Shown: piece after piece, positions 3,001-58,315 of the stretch | Layout of the letters: each line of letters starts with the position of its first letter | How positions within the stretch are numbered: position 1 is the first letter of the stretch | NCBI GenBank assembly: GCA_000310025.1 | Contig: FN649733.1 | Coordinates: 4,299,640-4,363,639, forward strand | Reading direction: 5' to 3' | Source of the DNA: Ectocarpus siliculosus | Taxonomy: Eukaryota; Sar; Phaeophyceae; Ectocarpales; Ectocarpaceae | DNA length: 64,000 nucleotides | Translations under genes and position numbers: made by a program | Notes under the pieces: model-generated | What the model was told of the DNA's origin: nothing | Database searches by the model: none | The model's input: the letters and a program-made list of their open reading frames with translations, nothing else

Positions 3001-6000
3001 ACGGGGTAAAACGGAAGGATAACTAGGTTGGTCTCGGCATTATCGTACTGCGGCCGAGGGTATGTAAGCGAAACGCGCAGTCTCCCAACACCCCCTCTGC
3101 AATTTCAGAGTTGCTTACTTGATTGTTCCGATCTTGCTCTCCTGTCGGCGTGTCAGGTGGACGCGTTCAACTCCTCCAGCCGGTACAGGAAGAGAGGACT
3201 CGCCGTTGTTCCGACGAAGTTCGGGATCAGGTATTTCTCTTGGAACGCGTTCGTGCCCATGGTCTTGGTTGTGAACTTCGCCCCGGCACCTATTTGCTCG
3301 CAACGAACACCCCGGAATCAGTCCGGAGGCAGGATCGCCTTTAAGTTGGGGATTAAGCCCAGTGTAGTTCATTCCGTGTGAACTCGGCCACGACTTTTGT
3401 GTAGATATAGACGGACTGGTAGAAGCCCCGGGTGTGGCTGGTGCTTCCCATGCTTGCTTGCTCTATGTGCTCGTCAAATTCACGGCATGGTCCCCCATAC
3501 GACAGCGTTTCTTTCAGTCAATTGATATGTGCGTATCATTCGAGCATCGCGGCGACCCTCTCCTTCTACCCCCTCCCACTGTGAGGTGGTACTTTTTTCA
3601 GCCCCAAGTTTTCCGGCTCATTCCTTGAACCCTAGTCCAAGCTCACCTAAAGCGTCTGGTACACCTTGGTTCTTATTTCTCCATGAGATCGATCTACTTC
3701 TTTGGTCCCGCCCGGCATATCACCTGCACCCTCCCCCCCCCCTCTCGATGCGTGTGGATGCCTCAAAAAGCTTTACGGTGAGATTTTTGAACCAGGCCGG
3801 GGCGCTCGTGCACGTGTACTTAGACGGGACGGTGCTGGTGAGTCACGGTGGTACGGAGATGGGACAGGGACTCCACACGAAGGTCTGCCAAGTCGTGGCC
3901 AACGAGTTCAACATCGACGTGGAGAAGGTATGCTCCCACCAACTTCAAGCCCATCTTTTATAACAGTCTTACACCCTCGTAAACTCGGTGATTTGTCAGT
4001 GTTCAGCTGGTTCACGCTGAGTTGCGCCTGGTTGCTCAAGCTAGGGGCGCACTGCATCAGAACGCCGCCAAAAGAGCGACCATGACCGACTCATCCCCTC
4101 GAACGGATCATTCTACGCGAGACGGTCACGTAAAAGTGCCCATGAGCACGCCAACAGTTGTTCCCTCCATACATGTTCATCAACTCGGTTGAATCTTACA
4201 TCTGCCCGCCCGCTGTGCGGGGCCGTTGTGACAGGTACACATCTCGGAAACGGCAACCGACAGAGTTGCCAACACGACCCCCACAGCAGCATCCATGTCG
4301 ACGGATCTGTACGGCATGGCCGCCCTCGATGCGTGCGAGCAGATCACAGAGAGGCTCCGGCCCGTCATGGCGCAACTACCGGAAGGAACTCCATTCGCTA
4401 CCATCGTTCAGGCAAGCGCCACAAAGTATTGGTTGTTGTACTCGAGCCAATCGCGAATACGCCAACAGTGGCAATGCCCGTTTTTTCTGCTGTACGATTT
4501 CTCCATGGGTTGTATGACCTGCGTCATGCCTGTGGTTTTCACGGCATGAAGCGATGCCGATATTTGGTGATCTCATATGTTTCGAAAGAGTCCGTGGATA
4601 TTGCGATATTCTGAACATCTAGGTTAGGGTTTTCCTGTTGTGAGCCCGCTACTGTAGCAATAATGCAATGGGTCTGAGTTGAGGCCGGGGCTATCCCCCG
4701 GGCTATCATACAATCCACTATATGTTATACAAGTCCAGAACGTTTGAGCAGACCATGGAAGCGGTGAACAGAGACTTTTTCTCACACGTCGCCGATGTGA
4801 CTCTCTTTGCTTGGGTAGTCACTGCCACCGCTGTGCCTTCTTCGTTTTTCCTTGCGTTGTATTGCCGGCATTTTATGGTGGACATTACGACCAAACAACC
4901 TAATTCCATTGCCGGTCGCCTTTAAGCCTGCAGTTGGTGTGGGAACCATGGTGATGGCTGACGTAGATTACCGCGTGGTTGGTTTACACCTTATCCGCCC
5001 TTGAACCCCAGGCTGCGTATTTCCAGCGGATCCAACTTTCGGCCCAAGGGTTCTACATTGTGCACGCCGAGCGATGTAATTACGATTTCGACATGGAGAC
5101 CACCAATAACAGGGACAGAGGGCTCCCTTTCAACTACTTCACTCAGGTGGGGGAACGGACGAGAACGCGGCGTTGTGCCCCTGCGGTTTCTCTATACAAC
5201 TTGCAATGAATCACTGCCGAATGAATTGGGCGTGCGCATAGGGTTAAAAATATTGACATATTTCTCAGTGAACTTCTGCCGCTGCTGACGGTGGTACCGC
5301 CACTGCTGCTTCCGTCGCTGATAAGGGTGTGGCGGCCAGCGAGGTGGAGATTGACTGTCTCACCGGAGACGCCAAAGTGATGAGGGCTGACATCCTCATG
5401 GACATCGGGACTAGCGTCAACCCGGCTATCGACATCGGTCAGATCGAGGGAGCTTTCATTCAGGTTGGCGTTCGTTGCATGTTCGATCTCGTTGCGCCTT
5501 GATCTACAGCAATGTTTTCGAACATCAAGATTCGCAATTGGCTCTATCCAACTCGCTTTACAAACTCTTCACGCACTTAATCGCACGGCACGCTACATGA
5601 GGGGGATGACCGGGTAGATGAGACAGCCTTCTTCAATGAAAATAGATGGCATTTTGTTTTTGAAATTGGGAAATCATACGACGAGCGCCGTTGCGAGGAA
5701 CGCATAGGAGTATTTGGTTTGCGTCAAGTGCCAAGCTCGCCCCGGTCTTGTGTTTTCCTCTCTTCTGTGGACTTGGGGAGTAGGGGCGGCTCTCGATCAG
5801 ATGTTTTTCACTACCCTCCAGGTGTTCGTTCGTATATCGGTCATATCCGAGCGTACATCGTGCTCTTGTTCAAACGTATGCCCAATGCTTTTCAGGGCTA
5901 TGGTTGGTGTACGATGGAAGAAACAAGCTGGGGAGACTCGGAGCATCTCTGGGTAAAACCCGGGCAGCTCTTCACCAAGGGCCCTGGCACGTACAAAATC

Positions 6001-19800: not shown

Positions 19801-20083
19801 CAGCCTGGGTGTCGGCATTCCCAAGAAGCGAGCAGGATCTTCGTTGCCAAGAGCAAATGCATTAGTAGTGTGCGTATAGATGTCATCGTTCAAGAACGAC
19901 ACACGCCGGGAAATAACGGCTCGATGCAGCGAGTGGGTGGATGGAACGAAAACACCCAACGATCTTTTTCTTCTATCGTCGGTCTGGCGCACACCCAGGT
20001 TGCAACAGCTTGCATATATATATACGCAATCACACCGATAGAGACTTGTATTCCGCCGGAGAAAACGCAAAACGGAGCTCGCG
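16840..20083. other. Region between the HMG-box gene and the seipin 3' end
   Basis: No gene is supported. It may contain a first exon of the HMG-box gene, which cannot be placed. A TCTCCAG-type short repeat lies near 18575-18605 and a TTG run near 18811-18830. The rest shows only short frames in poor context. Confidence 0.45.
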
Positions 20084-23000
20084 CTACCGTTTGTTATCAT
20101 TGCCCGCATCGACAGAGCTCTCGGACAAATCAAGCACTCGCCAACCCCCTGGCGCCGCAGATACCGCAGCCCGCTCCGTATCCACGAGTGTTACGTCTGC
20201 TCCTCCAAGCCCCGACGTCGGCCTGCTACAGCCGCTTCCAGCATCATCGTCACCATCCACCGCTGCCCGTTCTGCAGAAACGCTTTCGCATTCAACGACG
20301 CGAACGCCTTGCGCCATCGTCTCTGTCGTGTCTACAACAGCGGCAACTCCCCCGTGTCCCCTACCCTCACACGCCGCCGTCTCCCTTCGCGGCTCGATCG
20401 TATTGCCTTCCAGAGCCGCCCACGACGCCAACGCAGCCGCCTCTAGCTCGGCGCCTGGGTCGCTACCTCCTGCAGCCCCACCAGATCCGCCGCTGCCGGC
20501 AACAGCAGCCGGTCGACTCCCTTGTACAATGTACCGAGTGCCCCTCTGGTACGCCTGCACTCCGGGCGGCAACGTCGGGGCTTCTTGCTGCTTTCCATTC
20601 GTGCTTGCTGCGGCTGCTGCTGTTGCTGCTTCTTGTAACCATGACGGCAGTGACGATGTCGGTCTCCCCATCCAAACCGTGTCCCGGTTCTCGGTGCTAA
20701 CGGACGATACTGAGCCACTCCCTGACCTACGACTGCCACTGACGGCCGTCGTTGCTGGCTCTACTGTCGACCCTCCTCCCGCAACTGTTCCTGGTCGTCT
20801 CCCTCCAACTCCTGCCCTTCGTGTGAGACCCTCATCATCGTGGAAGACACCTTGGTCACGTGGCATTGTTGCGGCTGCTTCTCTCGCTGGCGGCGATTCA
20901 CGACCTCCGCTCGTTTCCGTCGTCGGGTAGCCTCTTCCGGTGCCACCGCCGCTGGCAGTAACCGCTGCAGATAGACTCGAGGAGAGCCGGCCGGTGTTAT
21001 TCGGAATCCTGGCTACACTGTGGCTGGCAGAGGATGTCCGGTTCCTGTTTCCCCGCGAGGCCGGAACAGTGCTAACTCGGTGGGAGGCGACCCCCGTGTC
21101 GCTGCTATTGTCATTCTTGTCGGATTCTTCGAGGCTGACGAAGAAGAACACGTAGCAGAAGCCGGAGAGCATGAGCTCGAGCGACGCGATGAAAAGAACG
21201 CCGGCGGCAAGCGTGGAGTAGAAGAAATCGTGCATTAGCCACGGGAGACCCTTGAGCTGCGGGAAGACATGAGAGAAGCCACCGGGGGGGGGGGGGGGGG
21301 GCCCCAGGCCCCCGGCCCCAAAAAACCCCTCCACCCGGAAAAAACAAAAGCCCCCCCGAAGGGCAAACTTTTAACAACCTTGGAAAAAGGGGGGGGGGTT
21401 GCCCCAATTTTTTAACCCCCCCCCAACCTTTTACCCATTACCCACCCCCCCCTTTTCAAAAGGGAAAACTTTCCCCCCCCAAACCCAAACCCCCCCCTCT
21501 TTCCCCCTTTCCCCTTGTTTACCCCCAAAACTAAACAAAATTCCAAACCCCCCCCCCCCCCTTCTTTTTGAAAAACCGGGCCCAAAATTTTCCACCCAAA
21601 ACCCCCCCCCCCTTTTTTATCCCCTGTCCCCACCGAAAACCCCCCCCCCAAAAAATTTCTCCCCCCCAAGGGAACAAGGAACCCAAATCTTTCCTTTAAA
21701 AAAGGGTTGGCGGCCACCCCCCCCGAAACCCCCCCCCCAAAACCCAAAAAACCGGTACCCAACAGAAAACGGAAATAACCAAAACAACTAACGAAAAAGG
21801 CGAAAAACCCCCCCCCCCGAACCCCCTTATTAACCCAAAGGAAGGGCAAAAATCCCCAACNNNNNNNNNNNNNNNNNNNNNNNNNNNNNNNNNNNNNNNN
21901 NNNNNNNNNNNNNNNNNNNNNNNNNNNNNNNNNNNNNNNNNNNNNNNNNNNNNNNNNNNNCCTTCTTCCGGAAATTTTTCTTGTTTTTTTCCTTCAAATT
22001 CTTCCCTTTTGTGTGAAACCTTCTTCTTGGTGAAAGACCCTTGGTTCACGGGCCTTTTTGGGGGTTGTTTTTTTCGCTGGGGGGATTTCAAAACTTCCGT
22101 TGTTTTCGTTCTTGGGGTACCTTTTTCGGGTCCCACCGCCGTGGCCATTAACCGTTCCAATTAAATTGGAGGAAACCCGCCGGTTTTTTTTGGAATTCCT
22201 GGTTACATTGTGGTTGCCAAAGAATTTCGGTTTCTTTTTTCCCCGGGAGGCGGAAACAGTGTTAATTGGGTGGGGGGGAACCCCGGTTTGGTTGTTTTTT
22301 TCTTTTTTTTGGATTTTTTGGAGGCGGAGAAAAAAAAACAGTTACCAAAACCCGGAGACCATGAGCTCAAGGGACGGGATAAAAAAAACCCGGGGGCCAA
22401 GGGGGGGGTAAAAAAATTCGGCCTTTACCCAGGGGGACCCCTGGAGTTGGGGAAAACCATGAGAAAACCCCCGGGGGGGGGGGGGGGGGGGGCACAGGGC
22501 ACAGGGCACAGGAAATCCGTGCAACCGGGATAAACAGAAGGCACAGCGGAGGGCAGACGTTTGACAAGCGTGTGAAGAGGGTGGGTGGTTGGTCCAATTG
22601 TTTGACGCCTGCCCTAGCATTTGACCAGTGACCAACCATCTCTTTTCAAAAGGGGAAACATTCACATCCCTAACACAGACGCGACCGTCATTCGGTCGTT
22701 CTCCTTGGTTATCCCGGAAACTATACAGGAGTTCATACACACCTCGTCCCCTTCATTTTGGAAGATCGTGGCCAACATATTGCAACCAAGATCAGCACTC
22801 TCATTGTTAGTCACTGTACTCAACGGAAACACCCCCACCGATAGATTTCTTCGTCGCGAGGGGACAAGGGATCTGAATCTGTGCATGTAAAAAGGGTTGG
22901 CGGGCATCAGTCGCGGAATCCGTCCAGCAAGACTCAAGAGACAGGTAGCCGACAGGAAACGGGAATGACGGAAACGACTGACGGATGAGGCGGAGGAGCT

Positions 23001-26000
23001 CTCCCTCTGGAACCTCGTAGTAAGCCAAAGGAAGGGCAAGAAGTCGCATACCAAAGGCGTGGTAAATTGGTCGCCCAGCAGCTCAGGGGCCAATGTCTGG
23101 ATTGCGTCTTATTCTCAGTACGATTCCGTGAGTATCGTAGTTTCCAGGCACCGAATTGCACAGAAGCCAACGCCACTCAAAACGGTGTTTTTCTCAATTC
23201 AAAAATCGAACGTAGAGGGTCGCAGCTGACCACCGGGGCCACACAGGGACAACAAAAGTCCACAGGGCAACGTCGATGGCGACAGCAACAACAAAAATCT
23301 GACCGGCCCTTGCGTAGCACCTACCTGCGGAGTGATGTTGATCGAGGAGCTGTAGAACTGTACGCGACCACTCGACACAGTCACTCTCGCCTTCGTCAAC
23401 GGGTGAAGCGCGTTTTCCTAGAATGGATGAAGGTCGCAGCGGAAAGCGAAGCCGCGTTTGACGAATGTATCCCGCCATTAACACTTACTTGCGCAGAGCC
23501 AACCAACGAGTTTATTTCGAAGTATCGTGTATCGTATACAACGCTGCGGGGTAGTGCCACAGGCTTCGGCATTCCGGCAGAAGGGGGGGGAAAGGAAGCT
23601 GAAGGAAGCCGAGGCCGGCGCACGTACTCCGACAGAAAACTATACTGTAAACGGCGACTATACAATACACGGTACGTCATCATGCGCATGGCAGTGCTCA
23701 CCTCACGCCCAACAAACTGTGGTACACGAGACCGCCGTGAGCCATTTGCAAGCTAGTCTCACCTCGTAGTAGTCTATACAATCCACGTATATGGTTTCCT
23801 CTTCTCTCCTAAGCCCGGCAAGATGCAGCGGCCAAGCGAACATCATGCCCACGCCCTTGCGGAGCGCCGATGTGTGTGGCAGCATGGCAGGCCGCGCCGA
23901 GCTGGCAAGCTCGTTGTCCTGCTCGTCTAGCAGCGTCGTGTGCACCTTTCCATCCAACACGCGACGGCAACGACACTATGAAGGAAAGATGGATGAGGCG
24001 ATGGCAATCAAACCGAGGATATCACAATTGTGCACGTCAACCCAATTTGATCGAGTTGTTGCACGCCACGATCCCGATTGCAGTCTGCTTCGGTACACTT
24101 TGTACAAGGTTCCCCTTCGGGAGGTAGGTGTGCTTGCCTCCCAGGGGCGACGCAAGAGGACATGGCCACTGCTATCATGGTTGCCTCGTTGTATATCTCA
24201 ACCTACCTTCGGTAGTGTCACGGTTTGTTTCGGTAGAAACTAATAACTGCAGAAGGTATCTCGCATCAATTTGTGGGGGGAAATTATTTTCGCCGTTTCT
24301 CTTCGCGTGCGCTCTCGCGGTGCCGTTGCCGTACATCCCACTACTGCTGAAACACACAGGCATCGCTGGGAAGTTTCTGCGCCAAAGCTCTGTCATCAGG
24401 ACAAGCTCGACACACAGTGCTTACCGAAAAGGCCGTGTGGCGCCGCATCGCCGCTGATAGCAGGGGCAGTGTAGCATAAAAGACATGTAAGTGTTGTATA
24501 TGCAAATATGCACCTCCTATTATCTTACCATGAAGACGCCGATCCTCCTGTTGATATATGACGTAGGCATCTGCAGCTCCAGACCGACTTTGTAGTGCTG
24601 CCCAGCTTTGAGCACCCTGCAGGACAGCATCACCCCGATGGGATATATAGAACAGCGAGTCGAAACGGTCACATTGGCTTAGCACGACAACGAAGAGACT
24701 GGAATATCGATTTCCGGCTACACGACAAAGGACAGGTGCAGATCCGCATCATCATTGATGACGTTGGTCACGCCTTATCAAACGTTGTCCTGAAACCTAC
24801 GGTTACGGACATTTGCTTTGCTGTGGAGAAGAACTAGGGCCAGCGGGGGTGTGCTCAGCGGTGGGTAGCTGGCTCACTTTGTGTTGAGACGCTCGACGTT
24901 GGTGAGAGGGGACGGGTCCCACTGTGTGTGCCTCGCCAGAAAGTCCACCGTGCCCGTCGCACTTCCCTGCCAACACAGAAAAACAAATGGCAGAGCAGCG
25001 GTGTCAGGGTCCATAATAATAGGATATGGTTAGATTAACGAAGGGAGACAGAAAACGAGAAAATGAGACACGACAATGTCTCTACGAAAATCCACCACAC
25101 ATAAAACGAAGTTTTCGCGCTACAATCCTATCGTATCAAACCATATAATGAAAAGATTTCTTACTGTCGTTGCTCTGTCGGAGTAGTCCAGGAAGATGGG
25201 CTTATCGTGCAGGCGGAGAGGCATGACTAGCCAGTACAGTGCCCCGTATAGGACCACAGCCGACAGTAGCACAGCCTCGAAGAGCAGCAGGTACTGCAGT
25301 CCCTGTTGTTGAAGGAGGGGAAGGTGAGGTCTTGAGCAAGGCAGCGCCGATTCACTCATGCACATGGGATGCGAAGTGCGCTCAATATAAGGTCAAAGAA
25401 CCGATGGTGACGCCCGTTCGTGAGCAGCTACACTGAGGAACATCAACGTCTATGGGGACCAACGATTCTTCAGCCCCTGTTTAAGGTTGAGGAAACACCA
25501 CAGACTGGGCTCTCTGTTTGCCGGATCCGAATTACAGGAAGACCCAACCTTGGCAATGCAGATTCTGTCCCCGAGTGGAAATTGAGATATTGACGGATAT
25601 GTCCACAGCAACATGATTGACAGCATGTAGGGCAGGGTCTCTCCAGAAAACAAAGTATTCTGGTCCAGCCTCTGTGGCTTGGTTTGGGAACGAAATTCTG
25701 TTTCCAGAGTAAGCAAAATCCGTCGCTTTGAAAGCGAGTGTGAAGACAGAACAAGCATTCCGTATGCATGGAATACGCTGTGCACCATTCGAGGACGGCA
25801 CATGAATGACAACAATGGACGACCCACTTACCGTTACGGCCGCGGCTATAGCCCGATTTACGAGCATCGTCATTGACTCGACCAAGCTTGCCAGCGGGCC
25901 TGGTGGGAGCTGCTGCTGATGCTGTTGCCGTCGTTGCTGTATGTACTGCTGCTGGGGCTGATACTGCCCGTCATGCTGCTGCTGCTGCTGGTGTTGCTGC

Positions 26001-33435: not shown

Positions 33436-36400
33436 CAGATATTGTAGCCATTCAGTTTGTGCATATCACACCAGACACTTACCTTGTAGCTTAGTCCATG
33501 CAGATGGTTTGGTCGTGTGCCGTTCGCAGATCGTGTTCAACAGCGTGCACAGGGCTCTAGGTTGAACAATGTCTTGGACTTGGGGATTAGTAGGCAAAAC
33601 GACTCGTTGACCGTTTGGGTCCTGATCCGTCTTTTATTTATGTGAGCATGTGCGTGCCAATTTTGGACGTCCCTTCTGGCACGAGTTCGATGCCTGGTTG
33701 GTTTGGAGTATGGAGGGGGGATGGTACATAAAAACATATTGATATCTTGTCCGGAACCAAACTAACATACGTGTTGGTGCCGACAAGCTGGAAATGAAAG
33801 AGGATGGGTTTGGTGCGGGTTCCGGTGGGTGTAGAAGAGTTTAGTGTAGAAAGGCTAGCCCTAACAGGTGTTTTTGTGGGCAAGCACGACTTAAAGTAGG
33901 TGGGCGTCCCGCAGGTCTGTCTCGCCTCGGATTGAGGCATGAGTTGGCCCATTTAGGATCGCCATTGTCGTATACAAAGAAGAAACTTCAATAGCTGTCC
34001 CGGTTTGGATACGTTGAGATTGCCGAGGGCGATGCATGCATCTTGAGGCGTCCCCCTGTCGTTGTTTCACGATTGATCGCGGGGAAGCCGCGAACGTTTT
34101 TGGCCTTAGCAGTGTCCGGCCTCGTCTCCGTTGTATCTGTCTGCAACTTCGTTGTGCGCACCCTTCGTCTGGGTGTCGTGGAGGTCGACGTCGGCGAAAA
34201 TAACTTGTGGTTGCGCTGTTGACGTCAGTGAGTGTTTCACGCACTCGTAAGGGTGCACGAGACGGAACGGGATACGGCAGTCTTGCAAGACTGCTGTGCA
34301 ATACCTGGATGTCCGGCATGGTTGCAGAGCCGCGGGAAGGAAGATCAGGAACGTGGGATTACGTATGTCATGCCGCCTTCACGGCATGTTCGGGATGATT
34401 GCTAGTAACGATTGGACGACTTCGAGCTCGCCTTTGCCCTCGTAGCTATATGTCGCTGCCAAACGTCCTTGGTTTTGGCAAGGTGAATGAGAAGCAGTAG
34501 GTGACTGCGTCAGACCGCAGAGCTGAAGCCGCAGTTATTGGAGAAGTCATACAGCAGTGCATTTACAGTTTGAGTGGTGGGTTGAACACTTCGAGATTCT
34601 TTTGCATCTTGTTTCCTGGAGACTTTTATTTAGTAAGGTGGCAACGGGAGCATCCACTTGGCAATACCTAAAATGTTGGCCAGCGTATCAGCACCGACTG
34701 GACGCATCAGGGAAGTACATTACATTGTTGCTTCAGTGGAACCCATTTAATTTATTCTGATTTTATTTTCGGGGTCAATTCCTTCTCGCCCAGGTCTGCT
34801 AGTTCTGTCGATTGACATATTTTGTACTCCCTGTTCAGTACCTTTTCAAAATGTAGCGTGATTGTACAGTATGAAGAGAGGCTTAGTTTCATTAAATGCT
34901 AAGCCGCACCGATAGGTCGGCACTGTGCCGGGATAGAGAGGACCATGCATAAAGTACACAGCTTCCATTTGTTTATTTAACACGTTTCGTTTTTCTTTGT
35001 CGTTCCATCTGTTTTGGGACCCAGTCTACACCTTTTGGCGTGTGTTTGACCCACCACCCGGGTCACGGAAAAATAATTCTCCACCTTTCTTTCCTCACCT
35101 GCGGTGCCTGCCTTCAGCCCTTTGAGTGAGAAGGGTTCAGCGTTTTCTTCCGTCTTTGTTGAGTACTGTACGAATAGACTATGCCCTTTTCGTATTGTGC
35201 AAGTTGTTTTCATTTCGGAGAGATTGGACACATAGCCTAGAGCCAGAGGATTTTTTTTTTTTTAAATCTTTGATTGCCTTCGGTAGTGGTTTTCTAACGT
35301 TGTTCTAGAGAGCACCCGCTCATCGTTTTGTCCCTCTCCTTCTTGTTCGGAACCCGAAAATCTCGTTCGGGACGAGTTCCACTGCGAACGGTCAACTTTA
35401 GGAGCTCTTCGAGCATTGATGGTATTTCGTTCACGTGCGCAGCATTTATCTGTGGAAGAAATGGTGGCGTTCAAAGGCGTCCCATTTCAAGGTCGGTGGT
35501 GGACCTTCCGTCTCTATTCACACCGGCGTCCCGCCGAGACGTCTGATTTCGGCGGGAAATTGCACCGCTTGAATCCTGCCAACCAACCATTGTGGATTTG
35601 AGCCTGGAATTGCAAAGTGACTGGGCGGGCGGAGCACACTCGGAAGAAATCCACACAGGAGATTGCTATGAGCTGGGATACGGGTACCCACGTAGAGGCG
35701 TTCAGCCCCCTTGAAGGTGTGTGTGTAGTCGACATGGTCCCATCTGCATGACTTCCGTCGAGGGTCATTAACTTGATCTCATGACGGTTAGATTGCATAC
35801 TGTACGATAGTTTATTTATTGTTCGTGTTCCTGTGTTTTCAGCGTGACGAGACTGAGCTGGATCAACAGGGGACTCGCTCATGTTGTAACTTTGTGATAC
35901 TACTGAAGTATTTTTTCCTCCCAATCCTCCGTCCTGTTCATCAAGCTTCGCCTATCTACTTCTCCGTGAAGAACAAATGCCCACTTCAGGGTGTTCTCGG
36001 CGGTTGTTCGCAAGTATGTAGAACCATAGATATTCATGAGTAGGCGTGCTGTTGCCCTTCGAAACTAATCTTCGCGGAGGCAGGCCTACTAACTTCACTC
36101 AACCAATTCCTTGGGGGGTGCATGAGGCTCACAGGGGGGGGGGGGGGGATATACTGCCGACACAGATCGGTCTCCAACCTAAACGCCACGACATACAAGT
36201 CGCATCCACGCGATGTGGATTGTGCAAAGCAACGATTGACCGGACCCTCTTTACCGTATGTAATGTTGTTCAGGTCTCCCACAGAACCCGAGAAATTGCT
36301 TTACGGAATAGAGCTGCGACAACGAATACCCTTTTTTCTTATTTCGCACTACCTAACCTCGTACTCGATTCATCATTCCAGGATACGGTTTTAGTCTCAG

Positions 36401-38325: not shown

Positions 38326-41300
38326 CTACTCGTCGCTCACCATTCCATTGCAAGCCAGCTTCGCCCCTCGCGCCGAAGACGCCCACGCCATGCCGTTAAC
38401 ACCATCCGGGTCGTCGCCCAGGTGGCTAGCCGTGCTCGATCCTGCCAAAGCGATAGCTCCCCACGAGGAAGAGGCGGCGCGGCTTCTCGCCTCCGCAAGT
38501 CTTTCGAAAGCAGCATCGGTCGAGACCAACGGGTCCCGGTCAGTGCATTCAACCCTCACAAGCGCGGCGCTGGCGGCAGTGTTGTTCGATTCGTTGACCG
38601 CCGTGTGTTGCGATCTGACTGTAGGGCCGGATTGTCTTTCTGATGCCGATCGAGTCGACTGCTCGATGATCCCCCCAGAACCAGGCTTATTGTCTCCATT
38701 GCTCTGCATTTGTTTGTCTTTCCTTGCTGCAATGACCGTGTTGCCCGCTTCCCCTCGTTCCAAGATCCTTATGGTTGTCTTCTCACAACCCTTCTCGTGC
38801 CCGTTACTATTTCGGGAAGGCACGCCCACGTCACTGCCGCCTAATGGTTTGGCATTGTTAGAGCCAGTTCCACAGGGAGGATGAGGTGTAGGCGCCGCTG
38901 GGAGTGGCGGTGTCGCCTGGGTGGTCGGTGTGCTGGGAGGAGAATATTGTTGTTGACTAGCAGATGCGTTCGTTAACGGACAATGCTGCTGCTGCTGCTG
39001 GGTATACTGTCGGCGATCTCCGGTACAGATGCTCCTCCCGTCACTCGCTGGCCCATGCCCCGGAGAGACCAAGCTAACACAGGGACCTTGGCCCTTCACC
39101 CAGGCTCGAAGCGCCGCCTCCGAGGCATTTCTCGTGACGGGGTTCTTCCCGAGGTGAAGAGCGGTGAGGTTAGTCAACATTGGCCGCAAGCGCTCCAGCT
39201 GCCTAAGACTGCGGATGTCATTGTCCAGTAGCTGAAGGCACGAGAGGTTCGGAAATGTCTGCGAAGTGGTGGGTTCACAGGATGAGGCAGGGCGGTTCGT
39301 GTTGGGAAGCGGGTGGTGCTTTCGTGTGTAGGCTTGTAGTGTTTCGAACGTATATATGTGACGGACTGGGAGAATCGCGTGAAACCCTAAGAGATTACCA
39401 GTAGAGAAATCAGGAAACACTCCCTCTACAACGGTAGGTACCAAGAAGCTTCCACGTTTCCATCGGTCGTGCCCGAACTCTGTGTGTTTTACTTCTGAGG
39501 ACAACCTCGCTCGCCACGGACAATCTTCCAGGACTTCTGCTTCAAAGTGACGCTTTGTTTTGCACGACTTGACGCACCTGTGCTATTGTCGAGGCCTTCC
39601 TGGCGACGCTAGTCACATGGACCAGCGAGAACCGAGCCTCTACGACTTGTTCCCTGAGCGAGCACACCTTCCCGTCGCCTAGCCACCGCCACACGTCTCC
39701 ATACACCTTGAGCGTGATTCCGCCTGCTCCGCCAGGAACACCACCCCCGGATGCAGCAACATCACCTACGCCCATTCTATTGTGCCGCAACCGCTGCTCC
39801 AGTTCGAAGTATCCCACTCCGCCAGAAATGCTGCCCCTTCGCCCGGCGTTTCCTGAACGGCGGCCTCCAACCCCTCCACCAGTCCTTGCCACCCCCGCCA
39901 CTTCACTCCCTGTGTTTGCCGAGGACGATGTGCGTCTGCTTGGAGGGGTAGGGGAGCGTGGGCTTGGGGGCGGGGGCTCCGGCCGTGGCGGAACAGCCCC
40001 ACCGCCCGTGTTGCTGCTGTCAGCTGGGTTTGGGCCAGTGGGTGCCGAGCACGACGGCGAAGATGCAGGCGGCGGCTTCACGTGGGCGCTGGTCTTTCTG
40101 CTGGTGTTGTCTTTGCCCGTGGAGGTAGAGTCCCGAGAGCTGCGATGTCTTGCTCGAGAAGTGATGGAGCCGCCACCGCGCCTCTCCCAGCACTCCCTAA
40201 ACGAATGGCAGTCGCAACCAAGGACGATCCCGATTGGGGATTTACTGGGTGTAGGGTCTGGGTGGGAGTTGGTACCCCTCCGATAATCGATCGTTCCCGG
40301 TATCCCTCGCTATGGAAAGTTTGGTTCGACCTTTGGCGAAGTGGAAAGATTTTCGGAGGGGTCACGATGCGGCAAAAACAAGAACAACTCTGGGGTTGCG
40401 CGTCTACAGTACTGCACATTACCGGGCTGCGGCAGAGGCTGCACGCGTCGTGGAAGAGGCTGCACGCGTCGTGGAAAGGTTGGATCCCGATTTCGGAAAC
40501 AAGTTCAATTGAGCCACCTATCGATGTGAAACTACCGGGAATCATGCCGAAACACACAATAGACTGCAGTTGTTCCGAAGACAAACGCTCGCCTTGCGGC
40601 TTCGATGGCCTCCCTCCGCTCCTTGAGCGCCGTCTTTTCCCGCTCGTCTCGGTCCGTCTTGGCTCTTTTCAAAGCCACCGCCTCTCTCGCCTCCGCCGCC
40701 CGGCTCATCCCGTTGCCCACAGCCAAAACCACCTCCTTTCTCGCCGCCCTTGTGGAACTATCACCGCCAGTGATGGCGCACTCGCCAGCGGCCATTGTCT
40801 GCTGGGAGAGCTGATCGGGTGGCGCAGGGGGTTAGCATACCTCAAAATAAAACGATTTTTGTGATGACGCTCGAACAAACTAGAGGAAACGGAGACAAAA
40901 CCGTGTCTCAGCGAAACGCCCTCGCTGTAGACGACTTTGCCAACGGCGGGCTTGGCCAAGAAGACAACCAACGCCTAACCCAAAATCGTTGGAATGATTT
41001 AGCGGCGAAATAACGGAAAATCTGTTTGAGACGGTCCATGGATGCCATAGGCCGTTCATTGGTGGTATCGTCTCCGCCGTGATTGTATATGAGTTGGGAA
41101 TGTATGGAGTCAGGTATGGAAAAAAGTGTAAACAAGAATAAATGCCTACGGCAGACTCAATAACAAAGATTTCGGCTCGGAGATATCCTGCCCGTCGTTC
41201 TATTCGGCGGTGAGATAATCGAAGGTTGCCGCGGCGGAGTCAAGACACAGAATGTTTCCAGCTCGATCGCTCTGCAAATACAGTCAGTTCAGACTCCATG

Positions 41301-44300
41301 AAAGGGGCGGGTGCTTCACACAATCTTTTTTCTTAGGGTGAGGCACGGTACACCCCCCCCCCAACGGTGCATGGTTCGTCTCCGGTGCTGTCCTTGTTTT
41401 CTACACGCTCGGAGTGTATGCTGGTGGCCATCTGTCGCCACGAGTTCGAGAGTACTTTGCAAACCTGCACGAATACTGTCACCTGTTCCCATGCGCCACC
41501 ACGCACCCTTCCGTCGCTACCGATAGCACCCTTGTCGGGAGCGGGCGCAGACATCACCGGCCCTGCACGATGAAGCCCCCTCGGGTCATCGCCGCCCCGA
41601 GAGTGGTGATGCTGGTGTCGATGTTGTTGTTGCGGGCTTGATAAACTTGAGCCGGGGTGATGTTCCGCGCGTGATTGGGTGTCGGCGCTGCCTTGGCCTA
41701 GCAGGACCGGAAATCCGTCGTTGCTTCTTTCATTGCGATTGGTGCCGCTGGTGCTGACACCGTTTCCGCCCGTACGGCTCGTCCCCGACGGCTTTCTGGA
41801 GCCTTTGCCCGAATTACCCATCGCCTCGTGAAACGCAGTCCGGCTCCTGCCGTTGTTGCCCCCGCCCCTACTCTCCCGGGCGTCATCGGCTGACGCTGTC
41901 CTTGTCGTTGGTGGCGCCAAGTTGCCGTCCGAACCTTGGTGCGAAATGGATTGGCCGTGATCGGTCACCCTTTTGAGGTCTAGGTGGTGCAGGTTCGGCA
42001 GGTGCTGCAGAATGTAACTGCGGTAGCTCGAACCGAGACCGTTTTGGCCCGCAACAGGGTTGCCGTAGAGGCTCAGCTCCATCAGAGACCTGAAAGTTTG
42101 TTGGGTTGGGGGCTGAGTTACGAGATGTGGAAAATGTTTTTTCCAGTCCCAATCGTAGTTACATTTTGTGTTACCCGTTCAATCCAACCCCATGAAAATG
42201 TTCTCGCTTTTCATGAATACAGATGACAAACTAGCAGGATGTGGCTCTGAAGTCCAGTGCAGAGTCGACTCCGGCGCAGACAAAATAAACTGAAGGGAGC
42301 AACGGGTTCACGCTTTTGACGAGGTGATGGCTGTCCTACCATACACATTCATGATAATTTCGATACGTGCAGCGCGAAGAGAAAATACAACTAACCCGCA
42401 AGTAAACAAGTACCGGGGATAGCTGTGTCGCTGCATACTGTAGAAGCTCAGGGTCCAGCAGATACCCGGTCTGCCAGCGAAACCAATCATGATGCTCGGC
42501 ATTCGATGCTCTCCGACGTCTTGCCTGGTAGACGTCCTGGTGCCTACCCAGTGGAGCGCTCCAACACTTTTGCTCAGCTATTCCTACAAGACTGAGTTCT
42601 ACCAGTGGCGTGGAACCATCCGGCTTCTCGGCCGTCGAAAATTCAACGTCTTACTCCTCGGCCGTAGCACGAATCGCCTACAGTATTTGTCACACGTTGT
42701 TTGCTTCGGTTCCAGAGGGGCATACAGGGCAGACGCTGACACCGGGTAACAGTACGGCTCTGGTCCGACGACATGCTACGAGAAGTGGTCGTTGTGGCGG
42801 ATGTTGCCACAAACTGGCGGCCAGGAGCCAACTGCTGGAACGCCGTTGTTGCTACAAAATAATCTTGTTATCCATGAATCCATTCGCCGCCACGGAAATA
42901 CGAAAACGTATCGCGCAGTACGTAGATCAAACACACCCACACGAAGCCAACTCGAGCGAGATTCCCGAGTGCAAATCCTCACTGACCGAAGCAGAGTATC
43001 GTAGGGGTAGGGAGTTGTGGGGTTTTCACCCGTCAGCATGATCGAGGGTACATGTGCTTACCCCACCGAGAAGACACAGGAACAGTCTTCAAAACTGTTG
43101 ATCCTGTTGTTGCTTAAAAACAGCCGCTGCAGCCTGGGCAAGCCATCAAGTTCCATCACCTTAGTTTGGCCGGGGAGACATGGACGTTCGAAAATGATCG
43201 ACACGCAATACAACACTGAGTGGCCATACAGTACGGCTGCACAGCACCGAACACTCTCGTCGTCGGCCTCCATCAAAACCCATTTATTCAGCCACGTGAA
43301 ACTCCGCGGGTGGGTTCTTACTTTCGTCGTAAGACGTCCATGCAAGTTTGAGGCGATCTTGTGTTGATGCACTCTCATGCCATCAACCTTATCGAAGTGA
43401 CATGGAGACATCGTCAGATGCAACAGCTGTTACTGCAGGCCAGAGTCTGATTCTCCGCATCCAACCAAAGGCGTTGTCTCCATTCCGCTGCTTTAGACTG
43501 TACACATGGCCGAGTGAAACTGTGTGTGATGACTAAGGATCAATAAATGCTTTCAGAAACAACCCGTCGTTAGAAAGGCAACACCTTGCTTGAAGCGAAG
43601 GCAGTTAGTTGGTCATGACCTACTGGTACGAGAGTCGGGCTTTCGCGGCAACCTAATAGTCATTACAGGTTACTGGCAGCGGATGTTCTTTTCATGTTTG
43701 TACAAAGGTGTGCTGCTTGGGCGGATCCTACATAGGTTTAGCGACAAACTGATGAAGCGATGCACACCCAGGGGATTCTATTGTGCAGCCTACCGTAGTT
43801 CAGAGAGCAGGGACGACGAACCACCTCTATTTTCGTTTAGGGAATGAAGCACCGGAGACAAGCATACCTTCTCGACGTTGTTTCTCCGGAGATTAAGCTC
43901 TGTCAGGGCCGTGAGGCAACTCACGTTCTCCACGACCCTGAAAGGAAGACATTGGGTACGTTGGAACGGTCAATATTTCGCTCAACCATCACATATTGGG
44001 AAGGAATAACCCCCTCCCCACACGCTACGGGGGCAGGAACGATCTGCAACAGGAGCGCCGGCGTGATTAACAGCGACACTTCAGTTTCACTCACTTTATT
44101 TGGTTGCCGGCGAGGTTGAGCACCCTCAAATCCTGCAGACCGTCAAGCCCAACCATTGTTTGGATGGAGTTAGAGTGTAGATCCAGGACGTCCAGTTTTC
44201 GTAGAGAATGTAGATTGGATATCTGCGAACACAACACACCCGACAACAACGTAGCGGTTGGCTGGTCAACGACGAGATAGCCAAGTGATGCTGCTGCTGC

Positions 44301-47300
44301 TGCTGCTACTCCTGCCCCTGCCTTGCAGGTAAGTGTCGACAAACAGAGGTATGGATACGGAATGAAGCAGAAGCATCTTCCCTGATATTGGGATTGTCGT
44401 CGGATGCATCGCACGGGAGGGAGGCACTGGAACGGACGTCAAAGAGGGTCAGCCCTTGGAAACGACATGCTGCCCTGGTCGACGTAGAGGAGAGGTTACG
44501 TATATGTACGAGCAATACGTGAAGATCGTCTTCTTCTGGGTGGACGGGCAACAAGCATGATATGGTTGAGACCATGAAATCGTTTTCTCATCTGGAGAGC
44601 AGGCAACGAAAAGTAGTCATCATCGCGGTCAATGCCGGGTCGCTGACGCGCAGTGGGTAGCGTGAACAAACGCGAACCAAAATAAACAAAGCGGCAGAAA
44701 CAGCATGCGCACTCTGGCATGCGAAATAAAAATTAAACATATGACGGTGCCACACCTTCTGGATCTTGTTTTTCCCGACCATCATGACACGGAGGGCAGT
44801 CATCGTCGATAGCGGCCCTTCCAGCGTGTCGATGACGTTATTGTACAAGTCGATGAAGATCAGGTTGGGTAGGTTGGCCAGGTTCGTGATCTTGGTGATG
44901 AGGTTGTTCTGGTAGTTCAGCAGCCGCAATCGGTTGTCTCCCTGGAACGTTGGTGATGGTCGATCGCGATTCAGTTGCAAACACAGGCGGAGACGGACGG
45001 GCGGCGAGGACAGACGTGAGCATTCGTCCAAGAAAGGAGACCAGACGAAACATCTATTGTGGTTCGTATCAATTTCTCTCGAATTTTTCTCTTCTCCGCT
45101 GAGTTGTCTCCACTGCAGCCTTCTTCCCTACAATGCATATATAGCTATTGGTTCACGTAGAATTTTGACGGGTGAAGTGACTTTAATCTTTAGCTCAAGG
45201 GGGCCAACACCACAACGCATGGCGAATGAAGCCCGACGCGCAGACTGGATTACAGTCTTGCACAGAAGCAAAACACAATCAATACAATGCCGGTCGAAGT
45301 CCCCAATTGGAGATGGTTGCTGTATCATCCTCTTGCGCAGAAGGAAAGGGCACAATAGTAAAGACGGTGGCCTACCGTAGTGGTAGGGCACGGGGGTCTC
45401 CCTGTAACAAATGGCAGTATTAGTAACGACAATACCAGTCTGATTATGCCGCTACCGCCGTCCCTCCGCCCGTCCTCAGGCCGAGGAACAGCCACGCAAA
45501 CAGCATTTGTTAAAATGCCAATCGGCAATAGGAGGAATTAGTGATGCACACACAATGTGGCCAATTGCATCCGTCCTCACCATACCGTAACGTGAAGGTC
45601 CCAACAACACGCGATCTACATCAATGAGTAGAGAGCCCTGAAGCAATAGAGAGGTACCCAGCATGTGCACTACACCACCTGTATGATGGGGCACGATGTA
45701 AGCCACCGCCGGTGCAAGTTCAGCCGCTCCGGGGACCTCTTCTTCGCGTCTTCACTTCTTCGGACCAGCAGAACGCCTCCTTGGAACTCCCTCACTTCGA
45801 CCCCTCCCTCGGGACCTGGCAAAAGCACACCGTTCTCGCCCCCCACCCCCATCACGCCGGCATCGTCGACGCCTCCCTCCAGTAGTTGGGTGGCCGCTTT
45901 GCTGAGCGTGGCACTAGTGGAGCCTGCATCCTGCTGCTCCTGGAGCGACATCCCCACACCGTGACCTTTGGCATCACCGCCTACCGCCGAGGTACCGCAG
46001 ATAACGTTGTCATTGCCCTCGGGTAGCCGCATCACCGCTTGGTCGGATTCTCGACCGTTTCTATCCCCACCGCCCCCATCTTGTGGAAAAACCCTAACCT
46101 TCCTGCTGCTGCTGCTGCTACTGCTGCCGCCTACACACCCTCGCCCGCTCCCGCTCCCGCTCCCGCTCCCGCCGCCGGTAGCACCGCTCGTAGCGGTTTG
46201 CCCTCCATGACGAGGGGCACATGCCCCACTGCCGCTGCTGCCGCCACAATGCGGGGGTGCACCCCCGTAGTTTGCAATACCTGTCGCGGAGTTGATGCGG
46301 CTTACCCGCGGGCTCGTGTCCGCGCTTGTGTTCTCAGATTGCGACAAGTGAGACAGGAGGCCCACTGCGGCGACGCCTCCCGCCGACCCACTCCTCGAGG
46401 AGTTGTTGACGCCGTGTGCGGGATTCGGGGGACTGGCTTGAGGGACCGTAACTCGGCTGACTATTGGTTTGGCGCTAGCTTGCGTCGCAGCCGCTAGTGA
46501 TCGCGGCGTGAAAGCTTGGTGACCCCCCCCACCCTTACCACTCCCACAGCTAGCACTTCGTTCTCCACTGGTGCCTACCGCTGGGACGACTGCAGGACCG
46601 TCGCTGCCAGCATTTCTTCTGTGGTTAGCTCCGTTGGCGGAGGAGGGGATGGGGTGGGCCCGTAACGGTTGTCCCACTCCTCGCTCGCGGTGCTGATGGT
46701 GTTTCAAAGAGACCGACCGTGATGACATCTGCGCACCTGCGGTTGTCGAGGCTGATGTGGCGGGTGGTGGGGATGCCCCTGCTACCGTAAGCGCTATTGC
46801 GGCTGACGTTGGTTCTATGTCGTCGTCCGCCGAGAGCAGCGGGAAGAACGAAGCCTGTTTTGCGGCGTGGGGATTAGACACAGCACATACGAGGAACCCA
46901 ACGTCTGGCTGCAGCAACGGTATGTATGAGGCGTCCCAGGGCTTCAGGTCGATGAAACGGAACTCAAAGAATGACAAGACAGATCCCATAAATCGAAACC
47001 AACACGCGTGTAAACTCTGTCGGCAGCATGTTGGCGATCCAAGCAGGCACGAAATCGCGGTGTTGACCGGGTCGGGGATCGACTGGATACACTCACATTG
47101 TGGGGAAACGCCCGTTGTTCGCTTCCCAGAGGGGGAAGCGTCGACAGACAGCCTAGAACAGTTGCCGAAGAGGTGAAGAAACTTATTTTCTGTCCACGGC
47201 AGTAATTCCAAAAATCTCAAGGAAAGGACCTTTCCGCACCCCGCAGTGGCGTACTGTAGTCTGTGTTGAAAGGTGAGGTGTACAGGATGGAGTAAACCGA

Positions 47301-52400: not shown

Positions 52401-55400
52401 CGACGAGGGCCAAAACCTCCAGGGTTCTGTCCATGGACGAAAGGTGCGAGGGTGGACCATAATTTGGAGAAGGAAGGAATGTGGAATCTCCCGATAATTC
52501 GTTTCGATCATCACCGGTCGGAAACCAAACAACGCAACCGAAAACACAAGAACAGTGGCAACATCGCACGGGCTGCTCAATCCGGGTCCGTCCGCCTCGT
52601 TGGGCCTGACACATACCAAGAGGCCACCGAACGGTACGGAGAGACTGGCTTCGCGGCGATGCGTTCTTCGCAGGAGCACCCTTTGATTTGAAGAATCTGA
52701 AGTACGGCTGCAGCGTTGATCCAGTGCATATATTGTTGCTTCAGCGCTGCCAAACCTTGTTGCGTACTCGGAACCGTATCATGTAGACTGTAGGGGCATT
52801 GTGCTGAGGGGCATGGATCTCAACTACCCGTTTTCCCAGGTGTGGTGTAGTCGCTGCTTGGTGCAAACGAGCTCAAGGCCGTTCTAATATTGATTTTCGG
52901 ACTGAGAAAAAGGTTCTTCTCCGACGGCCCCAACTCAACCCACACACCTGCAGGAGGATGCAAAGATTCGGCGAATTGGGTTCAAGGATACGTTGTTCGG
53001 ACCACCCGGGCTGGCCCCGCCGCAGCACCAAATTCTCAACAGCGAAGGAAGACACAAGTACTTCAGGTCTGACGGAAACAACAAATAATCGAGGGCCTAC
53101 AAGGCTGAAGACGTCGCGTCAGACCCAGGCTCAATTTCGCCCTTCGTCGAGACCGTCGACCGTGGGTTATTATTAGGTAGAGTCATGGCAAGATTTCACC
53201 GCCGAGATGTTTCAAGGCGATCAGCCTCTATTCCTGAACGAAACGTTTCGTAGTTGCGGGTCGTCACTGCAGCGGCTAGGATCCAAGACTTGAAGGAAGG
53301 AAACATGGTCGATGTTCCTAACGCCCGAGAGGCAACGAGTCGCTGCCCCTGCGAAACGGCTCTGTGGAATCAGCTGCTTCAACTTTCGTCACAGTTTACA
53401 GTTCTAGTGTCTCACATATTTTGACAGCTACGACGGAGACTGGGAGAACGGAAACATGAACGGCTTCGGCACGTACCGCTTCGCGGACGGTGCGACGTAC
53501 GAGGGTATCATGAGGAATAGCTGGCCCAATGGAGAGGGGACGTCCCGCTACGCCAACGGTGGCGTGTACGTTGGGCGGTGGAAGGATGGGAAGCATGAGG
53601 TGAATGGGCAGCAGCATGCCGCTTATACAGTGCTAACTGTACTCGGTGACGTCCGTCACGTGAGCGGCCGGTTGAAGGAACCCTAGGACGAAGATTAATA
53701 GTAACCCTCTTCTCTCCATCCCTCATTCTCTCTCTGTCTCTGCCTCTCTCTCTCTCTCTGTCTCTCTCTGTCTCTTCTCTCTGTCTCTCTCTTTCTGTAC
53801 GTCGTGATGCATAACTTGAAAGTTAACTCACTTACGCCCCAATGAAACCACGTTGGTCCAGTGGAACTGACTCCCAGTTCTCAAGGAGGTGGTGATCACT
53901 CAGCTGAAACCACCTTTGCTATATACGATGCGGTGCTGGTTGAATGGGAGACAACGCTTCGCCTACTGTAGTATTAATCTTGTGACAGCACTCTCGCCCT
54001 GTCGCCGAGGTTTGACAAAACGAAGTTATTCGTCCGGATCCGGGCTGATGTATTTTATCTATTTTTCTCGCTCGATGTGGTAAATATCTCCCCCTGTGTC
54101 AGGGCTACGGTGTCTTCACCTACCCTACGGGTACTGTATACGAGGGAACATGGCACGAGGGGAAGCGCTCGGGGAAAGGAATGCTGAAGCACAAGGTGAA
54201 GACACATCAGGCATTGTGATTGAATTTTGTAGCACGGTGTGGTGAAGCAACGTGTTCATGACAAGTCCATCAAAGCACTGAAAATCCAAGCACTACAATA
54301 TGTTGTACCGCAATAGGAATTTCCGAAACAAGCCGCCACATGAACCGGTGGGAAGATAGTGGGTTGTAGTACTGTTTCGCACGAAACTCTCCTGCGTGCA
54401 GGGTGTTGCCCCCTTGAATGCTGGTCGAACATGGAGGAGGCTCCCAACGTCAAATTACACAGAAAGAGAGCTGCATAACGAAGGTTGGAAGCTCAGGGTT
54501 GCAATCGCGCAATGGGTTTTGTCCGCGAACGTCTTGGAGCCTACGCACAGGGCACGGTATCGCGTACAACACCGCAATTAAGCATGGAAACATACAGCAA
54601 TCTCTCCCTACCGCAGTTTGTGTCGGCCAATCTCTTGGTTCACCTCATGTATTTTCCCCTCTCGCTTCTTGGAGACCCTAACCACTCAATAGGTATTACG
54701 CCACGTTAGCTACAACATTGGACAACCATGATTGACGCCACAAATGGTTACTTGTCTGTGTCGTGTACCACCACAAGAGCGGCAGCAGGTACGAGGGAGA
54801 TTTCTTCTTGGGGCAGTTTCATGGGCGAGGACGTTTCGAGTCTGCCAATTTGAAGGTAAACGAAAGGGGTGGTCGGGTGTCCTGGATGGGCATATCACAT
54901 TTGGTTTCATTTCCTTCAGTTGCATGCATCACTTATTTTTCCTGTGCTTGGTGCTACCCAACGAACATTTGTGGCTCGGAACTGCAAGCCCCGACACCTA
55001 ACACTCTAGTCGTCGCATGTGCCAGCTCGTGGGTCGGAATCAAGCACAATACACCCGTGGTTTATCGTTCACTTTACCCGAAGGGGAAAGGTTAGGGCAA
55101 CAGATGCGTAGCCCACATTGTTTGTTTGGCCCGCACCACGCCACTTGCCGTGCGATTACGGGCCGCAGGTGACGTACGAGGGTTGGTGGGTAGATGGTTT
55201 CATTCGTGGTCATGGAACACTCACGATGCCGGACGGGACAAAGCTGGTTCGATCTTGGCCAGCACAAAGTCGGTGAGACAGTCTCCAATGCCTTCAGGGC
55301 TTCTGAAGGATATATTCTCGCCAGTCTCTTGCACTGTCAGGCACGGCCCAAGAGGGGGATCCTGAGGTGTTACAAGAAAACTTGTTAGATTGGTTAAATG

Positions 55401-57196: not shown

Positions 57197-58315
57197 ACTG
57201 CCGTCACCCCGGGGATAGCTTTGCGAGGCGCGCAGGAACATACATGTGTGGGGCTTGGAGCCTTGTGGCACGTGGGCGCGAATGCCTTCCCAGTGGGCTC
57301 AAGACCAGCACAGTGGGGTCATCATATCTACCTCTTGCATGGCCCTTCGGGAGACCGACACAAGAAGTTGTGTACTTTGGTACTTGAAAAATACAGGAGC
57401 ATCAGAAATTTTATCTGACGGTTGGTCCGAGTGCTATTCCATGAAACGGTCGGCAGTCACGCCAGTCGTCGTTGCAAACCCATGATCTACGTAAAACGGT
57501 GCGAGTTTTGAAGCTATGGGGGGGGGGCACAATTTCTAACTTACACAAGTACCGAAGTGCATCGGTCACCTCGCGGAATGGCCGTCAGAGTTGCTTCGTG
57601 GCTGTTCATCGCCTGCACAGTGTTCAATTCTGAAGAATTGGAGCAAGAGAGGTTGGGTAGCCTAGGGTGGTCCCGAGAGCAACAATGCCTTCGCTCGTGG
57701 CGGGAGGTGGACCTGCATCTACAATTGAAGCGGTTGGTGAGGGACAAGGTAATATGTAGCTTTGCTCTTCAAGGTGATTCATTACCAATACAAACGCCAA
57801 TAATTCTGTACACCTCTTTTCGCCCGCAAGCACCATGCAATCTCTCCCCTGTGAACCTCACCGTACGTTCAAATTCCATTCCCGTCGAACAAACAGGACC
57901 AACGCATATGTTATACAGTGCCTGACACACCCACCAATCAACAACGTCGGGTCCAACCAGCTACTGAATCAAAGGATCTGCCGCCGCACAAGTGGCAGGG
58001 ATACTGCTGTAGGGGACTACTCCCTGGTGTCCCCTCCACTTGCACCAAAGGATCCCAAGGGTGGCAGTCAGTCGCGGGGTTGGAAGTTCACCTCGATCCA
58101 CTTCGATCCACGCCGGATATTCGCCTTTCTGAAGTACCGTGACTCTGGAACTAGACGGGGTGCACCTTTTCTGAAGCCTAGCCGTCGCAACACACAACAC
58201 GACAAACTGCCTCACACATTAGTAGTAGGGTGCTTGGCGATGATGGAGCACTAGACACACTTCTACTCCATCAAAGATACGTTCTTCGCCCTAGTTTCAA
58301 TCTACCGCATCCAAT
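57197..58315. other. Convergent intergenic region between the MORN and ABC genes
   Basis: Contains both 3' ends. A stretch at about 57631-57750 (+) reads EELEQERLGSLGWSREQQ and onward in a helical, exon-like style ending at a GTAATA donor. It has no partner exon, so I do not call it a gene. A 10-G run lies at 57518-57527. Confidence 0.45.

Follow-up and report, generated by a model that had tools for sequence, protein, structure and literature searches.

Layout of the apparently duplicated locus

The window analysed here is a stretch of 64,000 nucleotides from the phaeophycean Ectocarpus siliculosus (assembly GCA_000310025.1, contig FN649733.1, positions 4,299,640 to 4,363,639 of the forward strand), and its subject is an apparent tandem duplication that involves a poly-G tract, an assembly gap and the end of a seipin-like gene encoded on the minus strand. 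The same 1.09 kb is present twice, at 20772-21860 and at 21961-23050, on either side of a 100-base run of N (21861-21960), the only N run in the window. The features of the locus are collected in Table 1, in which contig A is the sequence to the left of the N run and contig B the sequence to its right.

The two copies are related in a reciprocal manner. To the left of the poly-G tract the first member is clean and the second is blurred, and to the right of the tract the first member is blurred and the second is clean. Each contig is thus clean up to its own poly-G and bad after it, which places the break point at the tract, as the original prediction from the letters of this DNA had it. The copies also reach both contig ends, since one stops at 21860 and the other starts at 21961, each abutting the N run. 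The overlap between the contigs amounts to 1089 bases counted on contig A and approximately 1090 counted on contig B.

Self-BLASTN of positions 20001-24000 pairs 20772-21852 with 21961-23042 at 70.1% identity across an alignment of 1084 columns with 5 gapped positions (E ~3e-137), and no other non-self pair was found across the whole window (word size 11, E ≤ 1e-5). Clean and blurred partners were also aligned globally, the right pair (21302-21860 with 22493-23050) and the left pair (20772-21283 with 21961-22472) separately. BLAST puts the offset of the left pair at 1189, and the global alignment gives 1190 at either end, a one-base ambiguity that is expected where phases are overlaid. The right pair lies 1190-1191 bases apart, its clean member ending at 23050 or 23051 depending on the register. 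The alignments agree with the copy coordinates, the 100-N gap, the poly-G tracts and the offsets (1189 on the left, 1190-1191 on the right) that had been claimed.

Table 1. Features of the seipin-like gene and of the duplicated locus, in window coordinates (a slash marks a splice junction).
Feature	Position	Strand	Remarks
Seipin-like exon with low-complexity tail	20087-21256	-	Acceptor CCCGCAG/CTC; PF06775 match of 33.5 bits as a join with the exon that ends at 23325
Clean left copy, where the good part of contig A ends	20772-21283		20772-21256 coding on the minus strand; neighbour identity 0.239; exon frame without stop
Intron as assembled	21257-23324	-	2068 bases including the gap and the false duplicate; splice-site positions
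Poly-G tract, contig A version (G18)	21284-21301	+	
Blurred counterpart of the clean right copy, contig A end	21302-21860	+	383/558 columns identical; 172/175 mismatches equal an adjacent clean base; neighbour identity 0.654
100-N placeholder	21861-21960		True gap probably negative: overlap of ~1.09 kb
Blurred copy of 20772-21283, contig B start	21961-22472	-	360/511 columns identical; 151/151 mismatches equal an adjacent clean base; neighbour identity 0.536
Poly-G tract, contig B version of the contig A tract (G20)	22473-22492	+	
Clean right copy, where the good part of contig B begins	22493-23050		Inside the proposed intron; neighbour identity 0.284
Seipin-like exon	within 23325-23417	-	Profile 143-173; the open reading frame holding it scores 14.2 bits, below the cut-off of 25; consensus-like donor CAG/GTAGGT
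Upstream seipin-like exon, matched stretch	23763-23945	-	PF06775, 37.6 bits, E 2.9e-9, profile 80-140

Errors in the blurred stretches

The blurred stretches at 21302-21860 (copy 1) and 21961-22472 (copy 2) depart from their clean partners in one particular way: 323 of the 326 mismatches in both copies together equal a base that flanks the same site in the clean copy. When mismatches were placed at random with the substitution spectrum kept, so that approximately 44-45% of them would match a flanking clean base, the mean was 76.3 of 175 for copy 1 (maximum 97) and 67.7 of 151 for copy 2 (maximum 89), in 2000 trials each. A clean base with two identical neighbours was always called right (45/45 and 20/20), and a clean base without an identical neighbour was retained in just 52% (n = 285) and 60% (n = 286) of cases. 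Phases -1, 0 and +1 of the clean sequence account for 555/558 calls in copy 1 and 511/511 in copy 2, and the control phases -7, 0 and +7 for 456/558 and 425/511. Phase mixing is therefore demonstrated from the sequence, and slippage of the polymerase on the G tract would be its source, in traces of the Sanger type.

Identity to the clean partner, taken in successive 56-base bins, ranges from 0.64 to 0.73 in copy 1 and from 0.66 to 0.79 in copy 2; it is low from the first bin and flat after it. Signal decay should worsen with distance, whereas a single site of slippage leaves the same mixture at every position beyond it. The flat profile thus indicates a step at the poly-G and not a gradual decay. 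The copies beside the gap had been described as degraded by substitutions towards neighbouring bases, which holds, but the accompanying account of a decayed trace and read-end noise gives way to a flat step with phase-mixed calls from the poly-G onward.

Indels are nearly absent, with 1 and 2 internal gaps in the global alignments against 175 and 151 mismatches. Within the blurred exon the mismatch rates at the three codon positions are 54/162, 40/162 and 49/160 (0.333, 0.247 and 0.306), and no excess at the third codon position was found there.

A model of mixed phases

The calls were further described by a generative model in which each call is the strongest base in a weighted sum of shifted copies, the two halves of every blurred stretch serving in turn for fitting and for testing. 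The five-phase version reached held-out accuracies of 0.867 and 0.900 in copy 1, and of 0.816 and 0.792 in copy 2, compared with plain identities of 0.686 and 0.705. Three phases gave 0.864 and 0.860 (copy 1) and 0.812 and 0.761 (copy 2), and a control with scrambled neighbours (three phases, one split each) reached 0.649 and 0.691. At the mismatched columns alone, where copying the clean base scores 0% by definition, the five-phase model was right in 76-78% and 58-64% of cases. G received the lowest fitted weight in both copies under the assumed reading directions. Copy 1 was apparently read rightward through the poly-G, and copy 2 apparently leftward through the poly-C on the minus strand, both directions being taken from the geometry.

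A base bias shared by the two reads, such that one blurred copy would predict the other, was tried and failed: with neighbour features the accuracy was 0.56-0.67, below the 0.705 and 0.686 reached by copying the clean base. The alignment register may be one cause of this failure (the main extra phase is +1 in copy 1 and -1 in copy 2 on the minus strand), which leaves the phase result untouched.

Continuity of the seipin-like gene

The three exon peptides, when joined, match PF06775 (Seipin) with 80.5 bits over profile positions 80-194 of 196, against a cut-off of 25; the upstream junction of this join is approximate. In joins of equal length to the preceding exon, the clean exon scores 33.5 bits (profile 143-194) and the blurred exon 19.7 bits (profile 143-179) against the same cut-off, and the gene is continuous through the clean copies. 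The exon at 20087-21256 encodes a hydrophobic segment, as judged by eye, and would be the last exon, given its open frame to a stop at 20084-20086. With the overlap merged, the intron before it measures 877 bases with the 18-G tract or 879 bases with the 20-G tract. Read on the strand of the gene, the tract becomes a poly-C whose end lies 27 bases ahead of the exon start (21257-21301, minus strand), in the position of a polypyrimidine tract.

The clean exon frame on the minus strand is without stops, and the frame of the blurred exon is interrupted, by 3 stops among 161 codons under the 1189 register and by 2 under the 1190 register (the latter from the list of open reading frames, with ends at 22342 and 21994). 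At the acceptor site the blurred copy reads CCCCAA/CTCC, by which the junction AG is lost, and another AG follows six bases on. As a second seipin exon in an annotation, the blurred exon would therefore be poor at best. A proline-rich, low-complexity open reading frame of 138 amino acids is present within the other blurred stretch, at 21375-21788. The warning that gene predictors might invent proline-rich proteins or a duplicate seipin exon here is accordingly fair. A further claim, that both outer copies are clean and coding, applies to the left copy, which is coding over 20772-21256; the right copy lies inside the proposed intron, and none of the three overlapping open reading frames scanned in it exceeded the Pfam cut-off (one match had an E of 0.19), its other open reading frames not having been scanned.

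Neighbour identity across the window

Neighbour identity, the fraction of bases followed by an identical base, has a mean of 0.263 across the window, and the values for the clean and blurred stretches are given in Table 1. In 100-base windows it rises to 0.72 in the blurred region, and its maximum outside 21200-22600 is 0.41. Six further runs of G or C with at least 10 bases lie outside the duplicate (C10 at 3733, G15 at 36134, C10 at 41353, G10 at 57518, G13 at 59191 and G16 at 63408). A second blurred example was not found in the 300-base flanks of these six tracts, where neighbour identity is normal (0.234-0.274). The G13 tract (plus strand) is read through without gap or blur, the sole failure in the window being seen at 18-20 G.

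Interpretation and alternative explanations

Two contigs that overlap and were never merged, as the original prediction proposed, explain the geometry, the neighbour-copying errors and the gene structure together, and the reciprocal arrangement, the 323 neighbour-copying mismatches and the seipin joins all support this account. The apparent tandem duplication is almost certainly an artefact of assembly, namely an unmerged contig overlap at the poly-G, and not an extra copy of the gene. The mechanism that we envisage would begin with a single-copy stretch of approximately 1.09 kb, holding one poly-G of approximately 18-20 bases in an intron of the seipin-like gene and sequenced from the left and from the right by reads of the Sanger type. 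In either read the polymerase would slip on the poly-G and yield products offset by one or two bases, so that each peak past the tract would be a blend of neighbouring bases, of which the caller would have written the strongest. Contig A, coming from the left, and contig B, coming from the right, would each have retained more than 500 blurred bases, and the assembler, presumably not recognising an overlap at approximately 70% identity, would have set the contigs side by side with a 100-N placeholder.

Several observations weigh against this interpretation. The overlap is known from the assembled sequence and not from raw reads. Taken alone, the clean exon and the blurred exon are both without a Pfam match (E 1), and the argument from the gene thus depends on the joins. 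The G15 tract at 36134 and the G16 tract at 63408 were crossed without gap or blur, so any length threshold would be drawn from one case. The fitted base strengths rank C>A>T>G for copy 1, whereas copy 2 (minus strand) gives A>T>C>G, and the equal order in both reads that had been predicted, under an unpublished criterion of our own, was not found; no single dye bias therefore fits both copies, and the reading directions have only the geometry to go by. Furthermore, in the prediction of one copy from the other, the model with neighbour features had a slightly higher log-likelihood on the wrong strand than on the strand assumed, and it was the model without neighbours alone that favoured the latter (-1.116 vs. 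-1.306, and -0.957 vs. -1.116).

A variant of the unmerged overlap would derive the phases from direct sequencing of a PCR product in which two alleles, or mixed templates, carried poly-G tracts of different length, and not from slippage in the reaction. The tract lengths are indeed unequal (18 vs. 20), and two phases suffice for 529 of 558 calls in copy 1 and 505 of 511 in copy 2. However, copy 1 requires more than two phases, which favours stutter: each of its 29 calls outside phases 0 and +1 matches -1 (26 calls) or +2 (18 calls), compared with 4-11 matches for each of the phases -6 to -2 and +3 to +6, and its fitted weights are spread across four phases. This counter-argument is weaker for copy 2, in which two phases leave just 6 of 511 calls unexplained, and a mixture of two alleles is considered unlikely overall.

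The remaining alternatives take the two copies as distinct sequences. If two diverged haplotypes had been assembled as neighbours (a heterotype false duplication), allelic variants would be spread along both copies and would not copy neighbouring bases, and divergence would not be expected solely beyond the poly-G in each copy; the neighbour-copying pattern and the restriction to sequence beyond the tract that were found instead make this very improbable. Two tandem copies alike at approximately 70% identity are also what a genuine, diverged duplication with a real gap between its copies would present, yet the divergence is reciprocal about the poly-G, almost all changes copy the adjacent base, indels are nearly lacking and the third codon position is without excess. 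The composition is moreover unlike that of the remaining window (neighbour identity up to 0.72 vs. a maximum of 0.41), and a genuine duplication can be given practically no credence.

On the preferred interpretation of an unmerged overlap, correction of the assembly would remove both the false duplication and the false gap and would shorten the intron of the seipin-like gene from 2.07 kb to approximately 0.88 kb. Proline- or glycine-rich open reading frames at 21302-22472 should not be trusted. The neighbour-identity signature could serve as a cheap flag for phase-mixed contig ends in old assemblies. Whether such ends form a systematic class of error in this assembly that can be detected in the text, with other gaps beside long G or C runs hiding overlaps of approximately 1 kb that neighbour identity would find without traces, appears evenly balanced, one case having been seen.

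Other features of the window

Elsewhere, the open reading frame at 3526-3960 (plus strand) matches a molybdopterin cofactor-binding domain (PF20256, 66 bits, cut-off 27) and may belong to a xanthine-dehydrogenase-like gene. Three scanned open reading frames in 38329-45127 (minus strand) have weak leucine-rich-repeat matches below cut-off, the best being PF12799 with 25.8 bits (cut-off 27) at 44591-45127, and are possibly exons of one or more leucine-rich-repeat proteins. A MORN repeat is matched weakly at 54736-55092 (plus strand), with 19.8 bits against a cut-off of 22.5. The whole window gave no Rfam match at gathering thresholds.

Comparison with known artefacts

The locus presents an artefact of a known kind, and nothing biologically new was seen in it. 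According to the excerpted account in PMC2864568, mis-assembly can yield false segmental duplications in polymorphic diploid chromosomes. The present case likewise has a mis-assembly mimicking a recent duplication, but it arises from read errors and not from polymorphism between chromosomes. Sanger stutter, in the part of PMC10643650 that describes it, is extra signal from positions immediately adjacent to the true peak on either side, often ascribed to polymerase slippage and worse at repeats and homopolymers. Here too, signal from adjacent positions begins at a homopolymer. The stutter peaks of that excerpt are below one third of the main peak, whereas the shifted phases here won 175 of 558 and 151 of 511 calls.

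The closest resemblance is to homotype false duplication, in which read errors leave one sequence uncollapsed (excerpted description in PMC9516828). As in that description, a sequence is doubled through read errors within one scaffold and a scaffold gap separates the copies; at this locus the copies flank the gap up to the contig ends and their differences are error-like, nearly all of them copying an adjacent base. Unlike the excerpted description, which does not give such a cause, the kind of error can here be read from the sequence itself, as phase mixing that follows a poly-G tract.

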